64,000 bases of DNA from Mycobacterium sp. ITM-2016-00317 (lineage in GTDB: Bacteria; Actinomycetota; Actinomycetes; Mycobacteriales; Mycobacteriaceae). The translations under genes were made by a program, and so were the position numbers. Under the pieces are notes generated by a model. It worked only from the letters and a program-made list of their open reading frames with translations, had not been told where the DNA came from and did no database searches. The DNA lies in the NCBI RefSeq assembly GCF_002968295.1, contig NZ_CP134399.1, forward strand, positions 4,216,001 through 4,280,000. The letters are read 5' to 3'. Shown in pieces: positions 4,255 to 28,316 of the stretch (position 1 is the first letter of the stretch; every line of letters begins with the position of its first letter).

Positions 4255-4273
4255 TTAGGTAAGGCAGTCCTTA
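4255..4273 (+). promoter_or_regulatory. IdeR-like iron box upstream of the ABC importer operon
   Basis: TTAGGTAAGGCAGTCCTTA matches the IdeR/DtxR consensus TTAGGTTAGGCTAACCTAA at 14 of 19 positions and contains a perfect TAAGG-CAGT-CCTTA dyad. It begins at the end of a possible -10 hexamer TACAGT (4250-4255) and lies 24 bases upstream of the first importer gene, a typical position for Fe-IdeR repression. The score is moderate, so binding is inferred. Confidence 0.55.
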
Positions 4274-4297
4274 TTACCTCGAGAGAACGGGGCCTGA

Positions 4298-5938
4298 ATG
4301 TCGGGCAGTACCGCGCGTCCCTACGTCCTGCCTCTGGTTCTGGCCACCGCCCTCGTCGTTGCCGCGTGTGGATCGTCCGGCTCCACGGCTTCCGGTACCG
4401 GTACCGCCACCGCCGACACGGTCACGGTCGCGGTGTCCAAGGACAGCGGGCCGCTGAATATCTTTGCGGGTCAAACCGATCAGATGACCGAACTGATCTA
4501 CGACAAGCTGCTGGCGCCGTCGCCGTATGTGGCCGAACCGCAGCCATGGCTGGCCAGCGAGGTCCGCCAGGTCAGCGCCACTACCTGGGACGTCGACCTG
4601 CGCGATGACGTGACCTGGCATGACGGCGAGCCATTCACCGCTGACGACGTGGCTTTCAGTTTTCACTTCATGCACGCCGCGCCGACCGGACGCTTCACCC
4701 ACCACGTCAACGACACCCCGTCGATCTCCACCGTCGAGGCCACCGGCGAGCACTCGGTGCGCTTCGTGTGCGACTACGCGTGCCCCGAACTCGGCACCGT
4801 CACTCTCGCCGACCTGCCGGTCCTGCCCGAGCATGTGTGGTCGAACGTCGACCCCGCCAAAGCCAAGGAGATGAACGAGCTTCCCGTCGGCACCGGCCCG
4901 TACAAGCTCGTCGACTACAGCCCCACCACCGGCTATCGCTTCGAGGCCAACCCCGAATACTTCGCGGGCACCCCGACCGTCGGGGAACTGGTCATGCCGG
5001 TGATCTCCGACACCTCGGCGGCATTCACGGCCCTGCGCTCGGGGCAGATCGACGCCGTCGACCGCGCTCTCACCCCGGAACTCGTCGACCAGTTCACCGC
5101 ATCCAGCGACATCGGCGTGGTGACCGTGTCACCGCTGGCCTATCCGGAACTCAAACTGAACTACACCCGAGAGCCGTTCGCGCAGCACGACGTCCGCGCC
5201 GCGCTGAACCTGGCCGTCGACCGCGACCAGATGCTCGACGTCGTCGCGCTGGGGCAGGGACGGCCCGCCACGCAGGGTTACATCCATCCGGACGCTCCGT
5301 TCGCCGATCCGGACGCCTCCACGCCCTACGATCCGCAGCGGGCCGCGGCGCTCCTCGATCAGCTCGGCTGGGTCGACGCCGATGGTGACGGCATGCGGGA
5401 GAACCCGGCCGGACCGACCACCCCGTTCACGCTGATCGTCGACGGGGGCAACGCTCCGCACGTGCGTGCCGCGGAGCTGGTGGCCGAGGACTTCGCCGAA
5501 GCGGGCATCGCCGTCGAGATCAAACCGCTGGACGCCGGGTCGCTGGCCGATGCCTCGGCGAAGATGGCCTACGACCTGTACATCAGGACCAATTCGCCAC
5601 ACGCCGTAGGTGATTCGACCCAGTTCATCATGTCGCACCGGTCCGACAACCTGTGGCAGCACCCCGATCTCGCCTACCCGGAGTTCGACGTGCTCTACGA
5701 CAAGTGGCGCGCGACCGAGACCAACGAGGCGCGCATCGCCGCGATGCAGGAGATGCAGAAGCTGTTCAACCGGCAGCCGACGGCGATCGCTCTGTACTAC
5801 CCCGACGAACACTGGGGCTACCGCGCCGACAAGTTCACCGGCTGGATCGAGACACCCGGCTACGGCATCGTGCACAAGTGGTCGTTCCTGCCGGCGGAAG
5901 TGGTCAAGGAGGCCAACGCGGAAGCACCGCAGGACTGA
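4298..5938 (+). CDS. Opp/Nik-type ABC importer, solute-binding lipoprotein
   Basis: Extracytoplasmic binding protein of the SBP_bac_5 family (peptides, nickel, opine-type metallophores), 546 residues. The N-terminus is a lipoprotein signal with lipobox VVAAC; Cys24 would be lipidated. Family blocks are WHDGEPFTADDVAFSF near residue 107 and VGTGPYKLVDY near residue 195. It is the first gene of a five-gene plus-strand operon and its TGA overlaps the ATG of the next gene by one base. The IdeR-like box upstream suggests derepression in low iron. Substrate is unknown; a peptide or a metal chelate are the main options. It is distinct from the OppA at 46022. Confidence 0.9.
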   Translation: MSGSTARPYVLPLVLATALVVAACGSSGSTASGTGTATADTVTVAVSKDSGPLNIFAGQTDQMTELIYDKLLAPSPYVAEPQPWLASEVRQVSATTWDVDLRDDVTWHDGEPFTADDVAFSFHFMHAAPTGRFTHHVNDTPSISTVEATGEHSVRFVCDYACPELGTVTLADLPVLPEHVWSNVDPAKAKEMNELPVGTGPYKLVDYSPTTGYRFEANPEYFAGTPTVGELVMPVISDTSAAFTALRSGQIDAVDRALTPELVDQFTASSDIGVVTVSPLAYPELKLNYTREPFAQHDVRAALNLAVDRDQMLDVVALGQGRPATQGYIHPDAPFADPDASTPYDPQRAAALLDQLGWVDADGDGMRENPAGPTTPFTLIVDGGNAPHVRAAELVAEDFAEAGIAVEIKPLDAGSLADASAKMAYDLYIRTNSPHAVGDSTQFIMSHRSDNLWQHPDLAYPEFDVLYDKWRATETNEARIAAMQEMQKLFNRQPTAIALYYPDEHWGYRADKFTGWIETPGYGIVHKWSFLPAEVVKEANAEAPQD

Positions 5939-6921
5939 TGGCTGTTGCGCGGCGGGTCGGGCAGTACGCCCTGGTGCTGTGGGCGGCGGTGACGCTGAAC
6001 TTCGCGCTGCCACACCTGGCGCCCGGGGACCCCGTCGTTTATCTGTACGGCGGTGCCGACCAGTCGCTGGACGAGGAGTCGCTGGCCCAGATCCGGGCGG
6101 GCTACGGACTGGACCGGCCGATCCTGGAGCAGTACCTCTCATTCTGGTCAGGCCTGCTGCACGGCGATCTCGGCCTGTCCGTGCAGCACAACCGTCCCGT
6201 CGCAGAAGTGCTGTGGGACAAGCTGCCGTGGACCGTCGCGCTGGTCGGCGTCTCGACGCTGCTGGCGTTCGTCATCGGTGCGCTGCTGGGGGCGTGGGCG
6301 GCATGGCGCCGCGGCACCGCCAAGGAAACCGGCGCCGTCGTCACCGTCCTCGCGCTGGACTCCATGCCGGGATTCTGGATCGGCATGATCCTCATCGCAG
6401 TGTTCTCGGTGAGCCTGGGCTGGTTCCCGTCCTACGGCGCGGCGGCCATCACAGCCACCGGCGGGGAGTGGCTCGTCGAAGTCGCGTCCCGCATGGTGCT
6501 GCCGATGGTGACGCTGACGGTGGCCGGCATCGGCGCCTTCTTCCTGATGACCCGCGCCGCGATGATCGGGGTGCTCGAGGAACCGTTCGTCCGACTGGCG
6601 CGCGCCAAGGGCCTCAGCGAGTTCCGCGTCGCGGTCCGCCATGCGCTGCACAATGCGCTGCTGCCGGTGTACACCACGCTGACGCTGACCGTCGGCGTGA
6701 TGTTGTCCGGTGCCGTCGTCGTCGAGAGCGTGTTCGCGTATCCGGGGTTGGGCAAGCTCATCTACGACGCGGTCACCGCGCGCGATTATCCGCTGCTGCA
6801 GGGCGCGTTTCTGCTGGCGACGGTCGGGATCGTGGCGGCGAACCTGCTGGCCGACCTGACCTATCCACTGTTGGATCCGCGGGTGCGTCGCACCGAGCGC
6901 CCGGAAGCGGTGCGCCGGTGA
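5938..6921 (+). CDS. ABC importer permease, DppB/NikB type
   Basis: Inner-membrane permease of the binding-protein-dependent transport family, 327 residues with about six membrane segments. The DppB-type N-terminus has RRVGQYALVLWAAVTLNFAL and LAPGDPV. The EAA-type loop contacting the ATPase appears as VRLARAKGLSEFRVAVRHAL. The C-terminus LLADLTYPLLDPRVR is characteristic of the family. The start ATG 5938 overlaps the preceding TGA (TGATG) and the stop overlaps the next GTG, so the operon is translationally coupled. Confidence 0.93.
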   Translation: MAVARRVGQYALVLWAAVTLNFALPHLAPGDPVVYLYGGADQSLDEESLAQIRAGYGLDRPILEQYLSFWSGLLHGDLGLSVQHNRPVAEVLWDKLPWTVALVGVSTLLAFVIGALLGAWAAWRRGTAKETGAVVTVLALDSMPGFWIGMILIAVFSVSLGWFPSYGAAAITATGGEWLVEVASRMVLPMVTLTVAGIGAFFLMTRAAMIGVLEEPFVRLARAKGLSEFRVAVRHALHNALLPVYTTLTLTVGVMLSGAVVVESVFAYPGLGKLIYDAVTARDYPLLQGAFLLATVGIVAANLLADLTYPLLDPRVRRTERPEAVRR

Positions 6922-8594
6922 AGGTTCTCGGTACGACCACCCGGTCCCAGCGCCTCGCGCTGACAGGTGCGGTGATTCTCGGCCTGCTGCTGATCATCGC
7001 CGCCGCCGCGCCGTGGCTGGCCCCCTACGACCCCGGCGAGCGCGTCACCCGGCCGTTCGCCGTCCCGTCGGCGGCGCACTGGCTCGGTGCCGATGACGCC
7101 GGCCACGACCTGCTGTCGCTGCTCATCCACAGCGCTCGCGTCTCCCTGTTCGTGGGTGTGGTCGCAGCCCTGGTGGCCACCGTCGTCGGCACGGTCGTCG
7201 GTGTGCTCGCCGGCTACCTGCGCGGCCCGGTGGACACGGTGCTGATGCGCGTGGTGGACGTCGTGCTGGCACTGCCGGTGTTGCCGTTGACCATCGTCAT
7301 CGGCGTCTTCGCGGGCCCCGGCCTGCGCACCCAGATCATGGTCATCGCCGCGGTGCTGTGGGCGGGCCTGGCCCGCGAGCTGCGCGCCCAGGTGCTGAGC
7401 CTGCGGGAACGCGACTACATCCAGGCCGAGCGCGCGATGGGCGCTGGAGCGTTCTACGTGCTGCGGCGCCACATCGTTCCTGCGATCTTCCCGTTGGTGG
7501 TCCCACAATTCGTGCTCACCATCAAGACCGCGATCCTGTTGGAGGCGTCTCTGGCGTTCCTCGGTCTCGGCGACATCTCGGCCGCCAGCTGGGGCTCGAT
7601 GCTGTCGATGGCGCATGAGCGCAACGCCTTCCTCACCGATGCGTGGTTGTGGTGGGTGCTGCCCCCGGGCCTGGCCATCGCCGTCACGGTGCTGGCGTTC
7701 GCGTTGCTGGGCAACGCGATTGAAGAGCGTTCGCGACCCGTTCTGCGTATCCGCCGCCGACGGGTCGGTCCCCCGGCCCGGCCTGTCGCCCCCGACGTCG
7801 AGGCTCCGCTGGTGGTTGACGGTCTCACCGTCGTGTACGGAGACCATCACGTCGGTGCGCGGAATGTCAGCTTCACCGTCGCCGCCGGCGAGGTTGTGGG
7901 ACTGGTCGGCGAATCCGGCAGTGGCAAGTCCACCGTTGCCGCCGCGGCCATGGGGCTGCTGCCGGCCGCCGCCGAGATCACCGACGGCCGCGTCCTTGTC
8001 GCCGGGCAAAACGTCGCGACCATGGCCGGGCCTGAACTGCGGGCCCTGCGCGGCAACCGGATCGCGCTGATCCCGCAGGAGGCGCTCAGCGCGCTGAACC
8101 CGGTGCGCACCGTCGGTTCTCAGCTCGACGAAGCGATCCGGGCGCACCGCTCCTGTAGCCGCGGCACCGCCCGCACGCGGACCTTGGAGCTGCTTCGGCA
8201 GGTGGGACTGCGCGATGACCACGTCGATGCCTACCCGCACCAGCTGTCCGGCGGCATGCGCCAGCGCGTGGTCATCGCGATGGCACTGGCCAACGAACCC
8301 GATGTGCTGATCGCCGACGAACCCACCAGTGGCCTGGACGCGATGCGGGAGGCCGAGGTCCTCACCCTGCTCGACGACTTGCGTATCCGGCATTCGCTGG
8401 CGCTGCTGATCGTCACGCACAACCTGCCGGTGATAGAACGGATCGCTCGTCGCATCGCGGTGATGAAGGACGGCGCCGTCGTCGAGATCGGTGCCACCGC
8501 CCAGATCATCGCGGCACCGCAGCATCCGTACACGCGTCGACTCGTCGAGTCCGCTCCTCGGCTCACGGCAGTGTCGCCGGGAGCTGCCCGATGA
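6918..8594 (+). CDS. Fused DppC-type permease and DppD-type ATPase
   Basis: A 558-residue fusion. Residues 1-275 are a second permease (WLGADDAGHDLLSLL, EAA loop YIQAERAMGAGAFYVLRRHI, six membrane segments). Residues 276-295 are an Arg/Pro-rich linker. Residues 296-558 are an ABC ATPase with Walker [10 protein letters not shown] (331-339), signature LSGGMRQR, Walker B DVLIADEPTSGLD and a switch histidine in LLIVTHNLPV. The two halves are usually separate genes. The reading frame is continuous through the linker, so this is a real fusion and not a frameshift. The GTG start overlaps the upstream stop as GTGA; the end overlaps the next ATG as ATGA. Confidence 0.93.
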   Translation: MKVLGTTTRSQRLALTGAVILGLLLIIAAAAPWLAPYDPGERVTRPFAVPSAAHWLGADDAGHDLLSLLIHSARVSLFVGVVAALVATVVGTVVGVLAGYLRGPVDTVLMRVVDVVLALPVLPLTIVIGVFAGPGLRTQIMVIAAVLWAGLARELRAQVLSLRERDYIQAERAMGAGAFYVLRRHIVPAIFPLVVPQFVLTIKTAILLEASLAFLGLGDISAASWGSMLSMAHERNAFLTDAWLWWVLPPGLAIAVTVLAFALLGNAIEERSRPVLRIRRRRVGPPARPVAPDVEAPLVVDGLTVVYGDHHVGARNVSFTVAAGEVVGLVGESGSGKSTVAAAAMGLLPAAAEITDGRVLVAGQNVATMAGPELRALRGNRIALIPQEALSALNPVRTVGSQLDEAIRAHRSCSRGTARTRTLELLRQVGLRDDHVDAYPHQLSGGMRQRVVIAMALANEPDVLIADEPTSGLDAMREAEVLTLLDDLRIRHSLALLIVTHNLPVIERIARRIAVMKDGAVVEIGATAQIIAAPQHPYTRRLVESAPRLTAVSPGAAR

Positions 8595-9346
8595 GCACGC
8601 TTCTCGAAATCGACTCGCTGACCGTCTCTTTCGACGGCAAGCCGGCCGTGTCCGAGGTGACGCTGACGGTGGCCGCAGGAGAAACCGTGGCTCTGGTCGG
8701 TGGGTCCGGAGCCGGCAAGTCCACCGTCGCTCGTGCGGTCGCAGGCCTGGTCACCCCGGCCTCGGGCACCATCCGCTTCGACGGCGTGGACCTGACGGCA
8801 GCGCGCCGGCGTCGCAGCCGGGAAGCGCGCCGCGGCATGCACCTGGTGTTCCAGGACCCCTACGCCGCACTCCCTCCGAACCTGCGGGTGCGTGAGATCG
8901 TCGCCGAACCGATGGTCATCCACCGTCTCGGCGACCGGGCCTCGCGCCGCGCCGCCGTGGTCGCCGCGCTGGAGAGCGTGCACCTGACGAGCGACCACCT
9001 CGACCGCTTCGCCCACGAACTGTCCGGCGGGCAGCGCCAGCGGGTCGCGTTCGCTCGAGCCCTGGCCGCCCGGGGGCGGCTGCTGCTGGCCGACGAACCC
9101 GCCAGCGGGCTGGACGCATCGCTGCGTGTGGAGGTCGTGGACCTCATGACCGAGCTCGCCACCACCCAGGGTCTCGCGGTCGTCCACATCACCCACGATC
9201 TGGCGCTCGCTGCGCGCAGCTGTCAGACCATCGTCGTCATGCAGGACGGACGGGTCGTCGAGAAAGGCCGCACCGCGGACGTTCTCGGCGCGCCGGCACA
9301 CGAATACACTGCCGCACTGGTCGCGGCAGCCACCAGTTCCAGTTGA
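8591..9346 (+). CDS. ABC importer ATPase, DppF/OppF type
   Basis: Second ATPase of the importer, 251 residues, expected to pair with the ATPase half of the preceding fusion. Walker A is GGSGAGKST, the Q-loop region reads HLVFQDPYAALPPNLRV, the signature is LSGGQRQR and Walker B is LLLADEPASGLDAS followed by VHITHDLAL. It is shorter than many OppF proteins and lacks the extra C-terminal oligopeptide-type extension with cysteines. Its ATG overlaps the preceding stop (ATGA). Confidence 0.93.
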   Translation: MSTLLEIDSLTVSFDGKPAVSEVTLTVAAGETVALVGGSGAGKSTVARAVAGLVTPASGTIRFDGVDLTAARRRRSREARRGMHLVFQDPYAALPPNLRVREIVAEPMVIHRLGDRASRRAAVVAALESVHLTSDHLDRFAHELSGGQRQRVAFARALAARGRLLLADEPASGLDASLRVEVVDLMTELATTQGLAVVHITHDLALAARSCQTIVVMQDGRVVEKGRTADVLGAPAHEYTAALVAAATSSS

Positions 9347-9356
9347 GGAGGAATAC

Positions 9357-9860
9357 ATGTCCACAGTGCTCGAAGTCGACGACAGCGGAACTGTCCTAGG
9401 TTTCACCTTCGATGACGTGATGAAGTATCACGGCCCCGGTTTTCCCGGCGGGGTGGCGCACGCGGTCAAGGTGCTCGAGCGGGCACTGCCGGTCCTGAGC
9501 CCCGGCGCACCGGCGCAGCGCCGCGAGATCTCGATCGTCACGGCGCACCGCGGTCCCGGTGTGCGCGACACCTTCGAGGCCGTCACCCGCGCCGTGACCG
9601 AGAACCGCTTCACCGTGGACTCCGCCCTGGAACGTCCGGACCGTGGCGCGACCCTGGAGCGGTACGTCTTCGAACTGACCTACCGCGGCACGACGGTGCG
9701 ACTGGAGATCCGCGACGGCTTCGTCACCGACGAATTCATCTCGCTCGCACGTAAACCCGATCGCAGCCAAGCCGACGAGGACCGCCTCACCGTCCTCAAG
9801 CAGGAGATGGCCGACCGCCTGCTCGCCGCGCCTGCCAACCAGGTGTACGACGTGGTCTAG
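9357..9860 (+). CDS. FmdE-like small protein, importer operon
   Basis: A 167-residue soluble protein without signal peptide or cysteine. The N-terminal block DDVMKYHGPGFPGGVAHA resembles the FmdE family (formylmethanofuran dehydrogenase subunit E-like), whose usual motif is HGHxCPG; here the cysteine position is phenylalanine, so the metal site is altered. A strong ribosome binding site GAGGAGGAA precedes ATG 9357, ten bases after the ATPase stop, so it belongs to the importer operon. It may handle the imported substrate or its metal in the cytosol. The family call is a resemblance seen by eye, and no function is claimed. Confidence 0.6.
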   Translation: MSTVLEVDDSGTVLGFTFDDVMKYHGPGFPGGVAHAVKVLERALPVLSPGAPAQRREISIVTAHRGPGVRDTFEAVTRAVTENRFTVDSALERPDRGATLERYVFELTYRGTTVRLEIRDGFVTDEFISLARKPDRSQADEDRLTVLKQEMADRLLAAPANQVYDVV

Positions 9861-9864
9861 CCGC

Positions 9865-10539
9865 TCAGGTGTTGTCCACCCACCGCAGCAGCGCGTACAG
9901 GAACCGGGTGGCCCCGGACATGAAGTTGCTGCCGTGGTGGTGCATCGGGTCCAGCGTCGTCACGATGATCCGCCCGGGCGTGCTCACGGTGTCCTCGTAG
10001 AGCATCATGCCGGCATCGTGCGGCGTGCCGTCGGCGCCGGGCTCTTCTGAAACCACCAGCGGCACAACGTCGGCCGTGGTGCGCAGCAGGCCGTGGTGAT
10101 GCCAGATGACCGCCTTGGTGGTCAGGTACTCCCAGGATTCGTGCTCGTGGCTACGGGTGCGGATCATCGGATCTTCCCCGATGGTCCACCACCAGAAGTT
10201 CGTCGGGCGGCCTTCCCATTCGATGCCCGGCAGCCAGGTGTGCACCTGGTTCTCGCCGAGCACCACCAAGGTGTCGCCGCGCTCGGCGACACCATGGAAC
10301 TGGGCGGCGTGGCGGGCGAGGAGTTCGGGGTGCATCCGGTCGCCCACGATGACGGTGCCGTAGCCGTCGAGCCCGCCGTCCTCGAGGTCGGCGATATAGA
10401 CGAAGTCCGGCTGATAGGCCAGCACCGCAGGGTCTTTCATCGCGTACAGGTGTGCGTAGGAGCCGCTGTGCACGATGGCGAGCCGGCGTCCCCGCCGCGG
10501 TGCGCGGTCGGTGCGATTGAAGGGTTCGACTGTGGTCAT
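9865..10539 (-). CDS. Glutamine amidotransferase-fold (ThuA-like) protein, second gene of pair
   Basis: A 224-residue cytosolic protein. Features include LAIVHSGSYAHLY at the N-terminus and VVLGENQVHTWLPG where class I amidotransferases carry the nucleophile elbow; there is no cysteine in the whole protein, so classical glutaminase activity is excluded. It is rich in His and Trp (HHHGLL, HHHGSNFM). ATG 10539 is chosen over the ATG five codons upstream because it overlaps the stop of the preceding gene as ATGA. It converges on the FmdE-like gene four bases away. Role unknown; probably linked to the importer by context. Confidence 0.6.
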   Translation of the reverse strand: MTTVEPFNRTDRAPRRGRRLAIVHSGSYAHLYAMKDPAVLAYQPDFVYIADLEDGGLDGYGTVIVGDRMHPELLARHAAQFHGVAERGDTLVVLGENQVHTWLPGIEWEGRPTNFWWWTIGEDPMIRTRSHEHESWEYLTTKAVIWHHHGLLRTTADVVPLVVSEEPGADGTPHDAGMMLYEDTVSTPGRIIVTTLDPMHHHGSNFMSGATRFLYALLRWVDNT

Positions 10540-11153
10540 CGCTGCATCAGCCAATCGATCAGTTGGGGTGTCATCCGGGCCGAGGTATTGGGATCGTCGG
10601 CGTAGTTTGTCAGGTCGTTGCCGCCGTGGACCAGCACCAGGCCCTCCCCCAGCGGGTAGACGTAATCCAGCGGCAGCGCATGCCGGCCGATGCGAGTGGT
10701 CACGACAGCGTCTGCAGGGATCTTGTCGGCGTAGCCACGCGCGTAGAAACCCGTAACGCCCTTGCGGACACTGAGATCAACGGGATCGACGCCCTCCCAC
10801 ACCGGATGCGGTTCGCCCATGCTGATCCACAGGTCCTTCGGACCGGTGTAGGTCAGTTTGCGCCAAACTCCCAGGCCGGCAAGGAAATCGGTGACTGCGT
10901 GTCCCATCACCGCGATACGGCCGCCGGCGGTGACGAATCCGTCGAGCAGCTCGCGGTTGCGTTCGAGAAAGATCTGGTCGGCGTCGGCGCCGACGATCAG
11001 CCCTCGGACGTCGGTCAGGTCCACCGCCGGCAGGCGGTAGATGTCGACCTTCCCGAGCCGCGGAGTCGAGCCGGGCGCGGGTTGATGGGTGCCCATAGTG
11101 ATCTTCAGCACGGGGGCAACTGTGACCGGTGGTGATGACGTTGTCTGATTCAC
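10536..11153 (-). CDS. Glutamine amidotransferase-fold protein, first gene of pair
   Basis: A protein of up to 205 residues with an alternating beta-alpha pattern: VDIYRLPAVDLTDVRGLIVG, then GGRIAVMGHAVTDFL at the nucleophile-elbow position, with His in place of Cys, and LVLVHGGNDL near the end. No cysteine is present. It resembles ThuA/GATase1-like proteins and is operonic with the next gene. The GTG at 11153 lies inside a 12-bp palindrome like an iron box, so the true start may be ATG 11096, giving about 186 residues. It was probably duplicated from, or co-opted with, its neighbour to act as a pair. Confidence 0.6.
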   Translation of the reverse strand: MNQTTSSPPVTVAPVLKITMGTHQPAPGSTPRLGKVDIYRLPAVDLTDVRGLIVGADADQIFLERNRELLDGFVTAGGRIAVMGHAVTDFLAGLGVWRKLTYTGPKDLWISMGEPHPVWEGVDPVDLSVRKGVTGFYARGYADKIPADAVVTTRIGRHALPLDYVYPLGEGLVLVHGGNDLTNYADDPNTSARMTPQLIDWLMQR

Positions 11154-11169
11154 GGTTAGGCAAGCCTAC
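11151..11169 (-). promoter_or_regulatory. IdeR-like palindrome at the 5' end of the ThuA-like pair
   Basis: The plus strand reads GGTTAGGCAAGCCTAC here, with a perfect dyad TAGGC-AA-GCCTA (11157-11168). Aligned to the 19-bp IdeR consensus it matches 13 positions, the mismatches being in the outer arm. It covers the first possible start codon of the minus-strand pair. Alone it would be weak, but it belongs to the same locus as the box at 4255-4273. Confidence 0.45.
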
Positions 11170-26061: not shown

Positions 26062-26454
26062 ATGGCGATCACCCTCAACCACACGATCGTCGCCGCGCGG
26101 GACAAGACCGAGTCGGCGACGTTCCTGACCGAGTTGTTCGACTTGTCCGCCGCGCGGCCGTTCGGGCCTTTTCTCGTGGTCGGTGTCGGGGACACCAGCC
26201 TGGATTACGCCGAGGTCGGCGCCGGCGAGGACATCCACCCGCAGCATTACGCGTTCCTGGTCTCCGAGGACGAGTTCGACGTCATCTACGGGCGCATCCA
26301 CGACCGCGGTCTGCCGTACTGGGCCGATCCGAGGGGCACGAGGCCGGGCGAGATCAACCACAACGACGGCGGCCGAGGCGTGTACTTCCGGGATCCGGCG
26401 GGCCACTCTCTGGAGATCCTCACCCGTCCGTACGGATCGGGCGGATCGGGCTAA
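26062..26454 (+). CDS. VOC superfamily (glyoxalase-like) protein
   Basis: A 130-residue single VOC domain. It begins [20 protein letters not shown] and ends with [20 protein letters not shown], where the Glu/His pair would bind a metal. ATG 26062 has GGAGGGG upstream. It could be a glyoxalase, a dioxygenase or a drug-binding protein; no partner narrows this down. Its TAA overlaps the stop of the convergent Rrf2 gene. Confidence 0.85.
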
Positions 26455-26927
26455 CCGACCGAGTGGCCGCGGGCTTCTTCCTGGTCCCGGTAGTCGTCGG
26501 CCAGGCAGCGAACGTGCTCGGGCAGATCGCCGGAGGCGACATCGGCCAGGCTGGTCTGCTCGAGCACCGAGCGCATGCTGGCCCGCAGCGCCCGCCACAC
26601 GTCGGTCAGTGCCGCCGTCGGCCCCGAGTACGGCAGATCGCCGAGCCCGATGTCCCGGACGCTGGCGAGAGGACCGTCGATGCACCGCAGCACGTCGGCG
26701 ATGCTGATGTCGACCGCGGCCCGGGCCAGCTCATAGCCGCCGTCGCGACCCCGGTAGCTGCGCACCAGCCGGTCGGTGCGCAGGTCGGAGAGGATGTCGA
26801 CGAGGAACTGCGCCGGGATGCCTTGAGCCTTGGCCAGGTCGTCGGTTTTGACCGGCGCACCGTCGTCGACCGTCGCAAGCTGGATCATCGCGCGCACGGC
26901 GTACTCCGCCTTGGCCGACATCCGCAT
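26451..26927 (-). CDS. Rrf2 family transcriptional regulator
   Basis: A 158-residue winged-helix repressor: [16 protein letters not shown], then [19 protein letters not shown] and [14 protein letters not shown], the classic Rrf2 wing. The three clustered cysteines that bind a 2Fe-2S centre in IscR/NsrR are absent; only two distant cysteines remain, so it resembles the CymR/Rv1287 group linked to sulfur metabolism. In M. tuberculosis the equivalent gene lies beside cysN; here about 4.5 kb of other genes separate it from cysQ-cysNC-cysD. Confidence 0.9.
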
Positions 26928-26988: not shown

Positions 26989-27007
26989 TGAGGTTAGGCT
27001 AACCTTC
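26989..27007 (+). promoter_or_regulatory. IdeR iron box upstream of the acyltransferase operon
   Basis: TGAGGTTAGGCTAACCTTC matches the IdeR consensus TTAGGTTAGGCTAACCTAA at 16 of 19 positions, including the whole central GGTTAGGCTAACC dyad. It overlaps a possible -35 TTGAGG (26988-26993); a -10 like TACCGT (27012-27017) follows at 18 bases. This is the best iron box in the window and predicts repression of the downstream pair when iron is sufficient. Confidence 0.8.
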
Positions 27008-27068: not shown

Positions 27069-28316
27069 GTGGCGCTTGCTGTCAGTGCCGCTCACGGCGA
27101 GCAACCAGCCTCTGCACACCGTTACCACCGTCCCGACGTTCAAGGGCTACGCGCGATCGCGGTGCTGGTCGTCATCCTCGATCACGTCGGCATGCCGGGA
27201 TTCGCAGGCGGTTTCGTCGGCGTCGATGTCTTCTTCGTGATCTCCGGTTACGTGATCACCGGGATGCTGCTGCGCAAGTCCACCCAGCCGCGCGGCGCAT
27301 GGTCCTTCGACTTCCTCGACTTCTACGCCAGACGGGCTCGGCGGATCGTCCCGGCCGCCACCCTGGTCATCGTCCTCACCGTGATCGCGACCTTCGAACT
27401 CACCAACTTCCTGCGCGGCGCCCGGGTACTGCCGGACGCGACGGCGTCGTCGTTGTTCCTCGCCAACTTCCACTTCATCGCGACCGGCACCGACTACGCC
27501 CGACTCGGTGCCGATCCCTCTCCGCTGCAGCACTATTGGTCACTTGCGGTGGAGGAGCAGTTTTACCTGGTCTGGCCACTGCTGGTGATCCTGGCGATCG
27601 CCGTCGCGGCCCGATGGCGCCGGGCGACGCTGCGCCGGGTGCTGTTCGGGCTTCTGGTCGCGATCGTGGCGGGCAGCTACCTGTCGTCGATCGTGACGAC
27701 CTCCGTCAACGGGGTAGCGGCTTTCTACTCACCGCTGACCCGGGCGTGGGAGTTGGCCATCGGCTGCCTGATCGCGGTGGCCCAACCGTGGCTGGCGGCC
27801 AAGATCTCGGCGAGCACGGCCCTGGCCACCTCCCTGAGTTGCTCCGGTGTCGCGGCGATCGCCTGGTCGGTCCTCTCCCTCGATGACACCAGCCGTTTTC
27901 CGGGGTGGGTCGCCGTAGTCCCGGTGCTCGGCGCCGCGGCGATCCTCGTCGCGGGGATGAGCGCGCAGCGCACGGTCCCGGCCGCCGTGCTGGGCAACCG
28001 GGCCTTCGGTTACGTCGGCGACATCTCCTATTCGCTCTATCTGGTGCACTGGCCGATCTTCGTCATCACCGCCGCCCGCATCGGCGACGACTTCGCCCTC
28101 CCCGTGCAACTGCTCCTCATCGGTGCGACCTTCGCCGCCGCCGCGGTCATGTACCACGCATTCGAGGATCCGATCCGTCGGTCACGCGCACTCGTGACCC
28201 GGCCATGGTTGAGTCTGGCCATCATCCCGGCGAGCATCGCCGTCGTGTTCGCGGTCGCGGCATTCGAGAGGTACCGGTGGTCCCTGCCTGTTCCCCTTGT
28301 CCAGCAATTGTTCTGA
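27069..28316 (+). CDS. Acyltransferase 3 family membrane protein (OafA type)
   Basis: A 415-residue membrane O-acyltransferase with about ten segments. Conserved blocks are YHRPDVQGLRAIAVLVVILDH (the catalytic His lies in this helix), FVGVDVFFVISGYVITGML, RRARRIVPA and HYWSLAVEEQFYLVWP. Family members transfer acetyl or other short acyl groups onto sugars, peptidoglycan or lipids. There is no fused SGNH domain; instead an SGNH lipoprotein is encoded 23 bases downstream. The GTG start 27069 gives a short cytosolic tail. The iron box upstream is unusual for this family and suggests an iron-starvation envelope or siderophore modification. Confidence 0.9.
   Translation: MALAVSAAHGEQPASAHRYHRPDVQGLRAIAVLVVILDHVGMPGFAGGFVGVDVFFVISGYVITGMLLRKSTQPRGAWSFDFLDFYARRARRIVPAATLVIVLTVIATFELTNFLRGARVLPDATASSLFLANFHFIATGTDYARLGADPSPLQHYWSLAVEEQFYLVWPLLVILAIAVAARWRRATLRRVLFGLLVAIVAGSYLSSIVTTSVNGVAAFYSPLTRAWELAIGCLIAVAQPWLAAKISASTALATSLSCSGVAAIAWSVLSLDDTSRFPGWVAVVPVLGAAAILVAGMSAQRTVPAAVLGNRAFGYVGDISYSLYLVHWPIFVITAARIGDDFALPVQLLLIGATFAAAAVMYHAFEDPIRRSRALVTRPWLSLAIIPASIAVVFAVAAFERYRWSLPVPLVQQLF

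Follow-up and report, generated by a model that had tools for sequence, protein, structure and literature searches.

The window analysed here is a 64,000-nucleotide stretch of DNA from Mycobacterium sp. ITM-2016-00317, whose genome is a single contig of 6.06 Mb. Near the start of the window an importer operon (4298-9860) converges on a two-gene operon (9865-11153), and each of them begins at a box that resembles the sites of the iron regulator IdeR (Table 1). The products of the two-gene operon are named GatA and GatB here, and together they are referred to as GatAB. Genes were called from open frames and from Pfam and NCBIfam scans, which bear out the layout proposed in an earlier reading of the letters (the sequence-only reading): a lipoprotein, a permease, a permease-ATPase fusion, an ATPase and an FmdE-like protein, facing a convergent pair. 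By Pfam, the importer operon encodes the full set of an Opp/Nik-type ATP-binding cassette (ABC) importer, with an SBP_bac_5 binding protein, two binding-protein-dependent (BPD) permeases and two ABC ATPases.

Table 1. Genes and putative regulator boxes of the locus (window positions; box scores out of 19)
Feature	Position	Strand	Basis
IdeR/DtxR-like box TTAGGTAAGGCAGTCCTTA, head of the importer operon	4255..4273	+	14/19
SBP_bac_5 lipoprotein, 546 residues, NikA-like rather than DppA-like	4298..5938	+	Pfam, E 7.5e-75
Opp/Nik-type permease B	5935..6921	+	Pfam/NCBIfam scans
OppC-like permease fused to the first ATPase, single frame of 557 residues	6921..8594	+	Pfam/NCBIfam scans
Second ABC ATPase	8591..9346	+	Pfam/NCBIfam scans
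FmdE-like protein, 167 residues, without the Cys ligands of FmdE	9357..9860	+	weak profile similarity
GatA, Cys-less GATase1-like paralogue of GatB, conserved His and Trp	9865..10554	-	
GatB, Cys-less GATase1/ThuA-like protein	10536..11153	-	
IdeR-like box overlapping the GatB start	11151..11169	-	13/19

Putative iron-regulator boxes at operon heads

The two boxes had been proposed in the sequence-only reading, at 4255 (14/19) and at 11151 (13/19), and both were found again with these scores. When each 260-base head region was shuffled 60 times with its dinucleotides preserved, neither score was matched. The first box lies 24 bases ahead of the ATG of the binding-protein gene. A DtxR-family regulator is present in the host genome, where two proteins score above the Pfam cut-off. 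The 64-kb window contains only two sites of at least 14/19, the box at 4255 and one at 26989. The latter (26989-27007) scores 16/19 and is stronger than both boxes of the locus described here; it lies about 60 bases before a divergent Rrf2-like regulator gene (26451-26927, minus strand, named by eye) and is followed by an acyltransferase-like gene at 27069 (also named by eye).

Related loci were gathered with a GatA profile, and the best 80 of 262 relatives, all from named organisms, were examined. For actinobacterial operon heads the best IdeR-like match was taken from an interval that starts 200 bases upstream of the head and extends 60 bases into it; for GatB heads the start was mapped by homology and the 250 bases upstream were scanned. 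The genera with IdeR-like boxes at the heads of these operons are Mycobacterium, Rhodococcus, Tomitella, Gordonia and Corynebacterium, and most of the Streptomyces loci examined have them too. All ten GatAB-linked Opp heads (the window, L033-L039, L041 and L056) score 14-15/19, values never equalled in 60 shuffles, and the head of a second Opp operon of Pseudonocardia acaciae, unlinked to GatAB, scores 10. The FecB heads of FecCD-type operons score 13-18/19 in 18 of 25 cases and 12 in three, and a locus whose FecB head was unscored (L068) has a site of 18/19 in a scan of the whole locus. Three of five Streptomyces FecB heads reach 17-18, a fourth reaches 18 by locus scan and the fifth (L070) has none. 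Where GatB heads its own operon the score is 12-15 in 10/10 loci and at least 13 in nine of them (shuffle p between 0.016 and 0.066 in the nine loci with an intact frame), whereas none of 27 GatB genes internal to a FecCD operon reaches 12.

Differences in gene order are informative. Two other mycobacterial genomes have boxes of 14 and 16 at the binding protein and of 15 and 17 at GatB. In two further genomes of the genus, with the order FmdE-GatB-GatA-binding protein, GatB scores 15 and 16, against 9 in both genomes at the binding protein. The collinear seven-gene operon of L157 (binding protein-permease-fusion-ATPase-GatB-GatA-FmdE) scores 16 at its head and 8 at GatB, and the FecCD operon of L156 (FecB-FecCD-ATPase-GatB-GatA-FmdE) scores 15 at FecB and 10 at GatB. 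The position of the box shifts with whichever gene comes first, binding protein, FecB or GatB, and the box thus tracks the operon head.

Outside the actinobacteria, matches to the Fur box were found in three Firmicutes, Cohnella (17/19), Paenibacillus (15 and 16) and Romboutsia (15 and 16); none of these scores was equalled in 100 shuffles each, and some of the heads were placed by eye. In alphaproteobacteria the Ssu-type heads have Irr-type matches at 10-12 of 14 arm bases (six loci, p 0.01-0.14), the match is weaker at FecCD-type heads (7-11 of 14 in 18 tested, p 0.02-0.70), and 14 internal GatB controls give 6-8 of 14. The iron control put forward in the sequence-only reading is therefore supported, on comparative grounds, by the conservation of the putative boxes at operon heads, their absence from internal GatB genes and the Fur boxes in Firmicutes.

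The GatA/GatB pair and its partners

GatA and GatB have no Pfam match above a family cut-off and no NCBIfam match to E 0.01. Neither window protein contains a Cys, and Cys occupies at most 14% of the rows in any column of the GatA alignment (74 rows) and 28% in that of GatB (54 rows), so that the conserved nucleophilic Cys of class I glutamine amidotransferases is absent. GatB models as a GATase1/ThuA-like fold, to which GatA is connected through its profile similarity to GatB, and by their sequences the two are paralogues. Both parts of the description "Cys-less amidotransferase-fold proteins" given in the sequence-only reading thus hold. Conserved D, H and G residues that follow strands would lie at the usual ligand face of the fold, and GatA and GatB probably form a heterodimer. 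ThuA-like and GATase1-like proteins (3rht, 1t0b, STM1381 and STM3548) share 10-17% identity with them; GatA and GatB differ in having no conserved Cys and in being a paralogous pair tied to importers. Public records give the name "phosphate starvation-inducible protein PhoH", apparently a misnomer, to relatives of GatB in Paenibacillus, Brevibacillus and Bacillus (P0302, P0314, P0317, P0319, P0320, P0322 and others).

GatB adjoins GatA in 78 of the 80 loci, and the importer beside them varies. Within 6 kb of GatAB the importer is of the FecCD type in 47 loci, Opp in 19, Ssu in 11 and Opp plus Ssu in one, with none in two. When importer type is mapped on a maximum-likelihood tree built from 76 GatA sequences, at least eight changes are required, versus 26.4 in shuffles, and the well-supported branches alone force three or four changes per importer class. 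As judged from this tree, importer type is inherited within clades yet has repeatedly changed, for example between neighbouring Rhodococcus groups. The sequence-only reading had suggested a search for the gene set in other actinobacteria; it was found there and in further phyla, with GatAB spanning several of them. In Methylobacter (L083) the order is TonB receptor-FecB-FecCD-ATPase-GatB-GatA-FmdE. Close copies of GatB occur in only three of 396 genomes of the window's genus, the window genome included; a further four have distant copies (33-38%), and one match is marginal. Strains of M. smegmatis are among the carriers of homologues. Taken with the spread across phyla, the scarcity of close copies in the genus indicates that the system is not an essentially mycobacterial one.

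Several neighbouring genes were also recorded. In the window argS and a tRNA-Arg gene adjoin the locus. Insertion as an island at this tRNA-Arg was considered and is not demonstrated, since two close mycobacterial copies have no argS within their 18-19 kb. In Thalassospira (L085, 2731-5684) DUF444 and SpoVR genes directly precede an Opp-GatAB operon. In the Magnetospirillum-type loci (L101 and L109) the neighbours of GatAB are an importer of the Ssu type and a TonB receptor, and the gene before GatB in L101 clusters with a Crp-like regulator of Romboutsia.

The FmdE-like protein was named as such in the sequence-only reading. It has a 98% identical counterpart in M. vaccae, which places the window in a Mycolicibacterium near that species. 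The name FmdE-like stands as a profile likeness (profile-profile probability 84%, E 8e-6), one that is weak: the protein has no match to the FmdE family PF02663 in Pfam to E 1 and no family at cut-off, and PF02663 has no match anywhere in the host genome. It further differs from FmdE in that the metal motif FHGHxCPG is replaced by YHGPxxPG and Cys is absent. Its alignment also matched TAL-repeat chains in the PDB, which was attributed to chance repeat-like similarity. Among 401 genomes of the family the FmdE-like protein occurs in 62, GatA in 55 and both in 47, with GatA alone in eight (Fisher p 1.5e-39, uncorrected for kinship). In one genome with no GatA match (G227; L154, 6640-8211) a cupin-like gene, named by eye, adjoins the FmdE-like gene.

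Clues to the substrate

The binding protein of the window scores 144.1 bits against the NCBIfam NikA model (cut-off 393) and 104.5 bits against CntA (cut-off 800). Against the dipeptide DppA model it scores 67 bits, far below the cut-off, a comparison with the NCBIfam model and not with the M. tuberculosis protein itself. Five aligned GatAB-linked binding proteins share an H[AG]V[AG]D motif, which reads TNSPHAVGDSTQF in the window protein. DppA and OppA carry GWTGDNGDPDNF and GWCADYNEPTSF at this motif, and the column of their Asp holds Ala in the window protein. The Asp of this GW-motif anchors the amine of the peptide in DppA and OppA, and its absence makes a peptide substrate unlikely. The peptidic substrate suggested as one possibility in the sequence-only reading is therefore not upheld, the more so as FecCD-type or Ssu-type importers take the place of this one in other loci. 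Could the locus encode an ordinary peptide or nickel importer that has boxes by chance? The family to which the transporter belongs fits such a role. However, the boxes are kept at operon heads and absent within operons, the peptide Asp motif is missing and the NikA score falls far short of its cut-off, and we regard this explanation as very improbable.

A second explanation is that the system spares iron, taking up a nutrient other than iron, or a different metal, that is required at low iron, with GatAB acting on the ligand. The NikA-like binding protein and the Ssu-type importers of some loci are consistent with this, as is the presence, close to some Rhodococcus copies, of rhodanese genes and of genes resembling alkanesulfonate monooxygenase. 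The association of three importer classes with at least two types of iron-regulator box (DtxR and Fur) points instead to iron starvation, and the TonB receptors are mostly of the haem-receptor type; we find iron-sparing uptake quite unlikely. An assignment of the substrate from the Rhodococcus neighbours (rhodanese, GntR-type and monooxygenase-like) was rejected, as their presence looks like lineage synteny.

A TonB receptor lies within 7 kb of GatAB in 15 of the 80 loci. Four of five tested score best against a haem/haemoglobin receptor model, and the Methylobacter receptor has the haem receptor PhuR as its best PDB match. Only that of Chelatococcus composti passes the cut-off (534 vs 317 bits), the other three being below it; the fifth, from Magnetospirillum (L109), is nearest a copper-receptor model at 162 bits, also below cut-off. 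Moreover, the Chelatococcus receptor adjoins FecB/FecCD-like genes of its own, and by eye no such genes lie near four Ssu-type relatives. Genes resembling nitrogenase lie beside the FecCD/GatAB system in Romboutsia (L095, 5089-8416) and in two Rhodoplanes (L087, 16285-19653; L088, 16621-19618). They are nearest the NifH, CfbC and NifE models, all below cut-off. In Romboutsia NifH/D/K-like genes flank the system, which has a Fur box there. In the two Rhodoplanes they follow the TonB receptor, as an H-like and a D-like gene in one and as a D-like gene and a K-like frame with no NCBIfam match in the other. According to PMC11423573, Group IV and V nitrogenase-like enzymes act on tetrapyrroles, methylthioalkanes or isethionate. 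Taken together, the receptors and the nitrogenase-like genes slightly favour a tetrapyrrole in certain lineages.

These clues bear on the possibility that the substrate is haem or another iron tetrapyrrole, with GatAB as a haem-handling or iron-releasing pair that a nitrogenase-like reductase helps in some anaerobes. Importers of the Opp and FecCD types are both used for haem in other systems; Ssu-type importers are not known for this, which counts against it. The nitrogenase-like genes are found in 3/80 loci, a count from clustering and not from a systematic search. The M. tuberculosis importer DppABCD, likewise Opp-type, serves mycobacterial iron nutrition by importing haem through DppA (PMC6751184), and the available parts of that paper mention no GatAB partners. 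With a single haem-type receptor above its cut-off the substrate was not assigned by receptor type, and haem is kept as a rival, one that we hold to be unlikely, rather than as a verdict. A haem-like substrate, also raised in the sequence-only reading, is conceivable for the window system.

Proposed handling of an iron chelate

The reading that we favour, and consider fairly probable, is iron-repressed import of an iron chelate that GatAB and the FmdE-like protein handle inside the cell. When iron is scarce IdeR would leave both boxes and both operons would be derepressed. The binding lipoprotein may then capture an iron chelate, not necessarily one made by the organism itself, and the Opp/Nik-type permease-ATPases would carry it inward. 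In the cell GatA and GatB, with the FmdE-like protein, may bind the chelate so that iron is freed or the ligand altered. The overall interpretation in the sequence-only reading, iron-responsive uptake with amidotransferase-fold partners, is well supported comparatively, its peptidic substrate excepted. It is also conceivable, and we offer this with considerable doubt, that GatA and GatB are the first members of a new class of intracellular iron-release proteins, a Cys-less pair of amidotransferase fold that would extract iron from an imported chelate and has been joined to three unrelated importer classes in several phyla. In anaerobic lineages the pair would then act on an iron tetrapyrrole together with a reductase of the nitrogenase-like kind.

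A number of observations weigh against iron-repressed chelate import. Both boxes of the locus are weak by consensus, and the five sites of at least 16/19 in the genome include neither. The loci include close relatives, so the box counts are not independent. Four of the 25 FecB heads score below 12; for two of these (L048 and L065) the locus scan finds a site of 14-15/19 next to a frame start that had been extended too far, and for the other two (L069 and L070) it finds no site. The Opp-type locus of Rubrobacter (L108) has no site of at least 13. No Fur box was found at the Methylobacter operon head (best 10/19), and the putative Irr-type boxes of alphaproteobacteria are suggestive at best. As for the FmdE-like protein, its gene lies within 6 kb of GatAB in only 33/80 loci, its start scores at least 13 in one of 42 rows (three genomes being counted twice), and 15 of the 62 genomes that have it show no GatA match.

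Among known systems NikABCDE and CntABCDF have the same class of binding protein, two permeases and two ATPases, and the window binding protein is closest to NikA models. The window system differs from them in scores that fall well short of the equivalog cut-offs for NikA and CntA, and in its permease-ATPase fusion, IdeR-like boxes, GatAB and FmdE-like protein. No account of this gene set was found in the open literature searched, a coverage outside which most subscription papers fall. ABC import of iron is of a known kind; the intracellular part played by GatAB is uncharacterised. A few reductases, hydrolases and haem-degrading enzymes are known to strip iron from chelates after import. As GatAB stays with iron-type boxes while the importer has changed about eight times, the intracellular step appears to be the constant one. 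The use of the same partner pair with three kinds of importer suggests an undescribed intracellular handling of an iron-bearing compound, and the GatAB genes, as genes open to deletion in harmless bacteria, may offer a route to a missing iron source and possibly to a new enzyme class.

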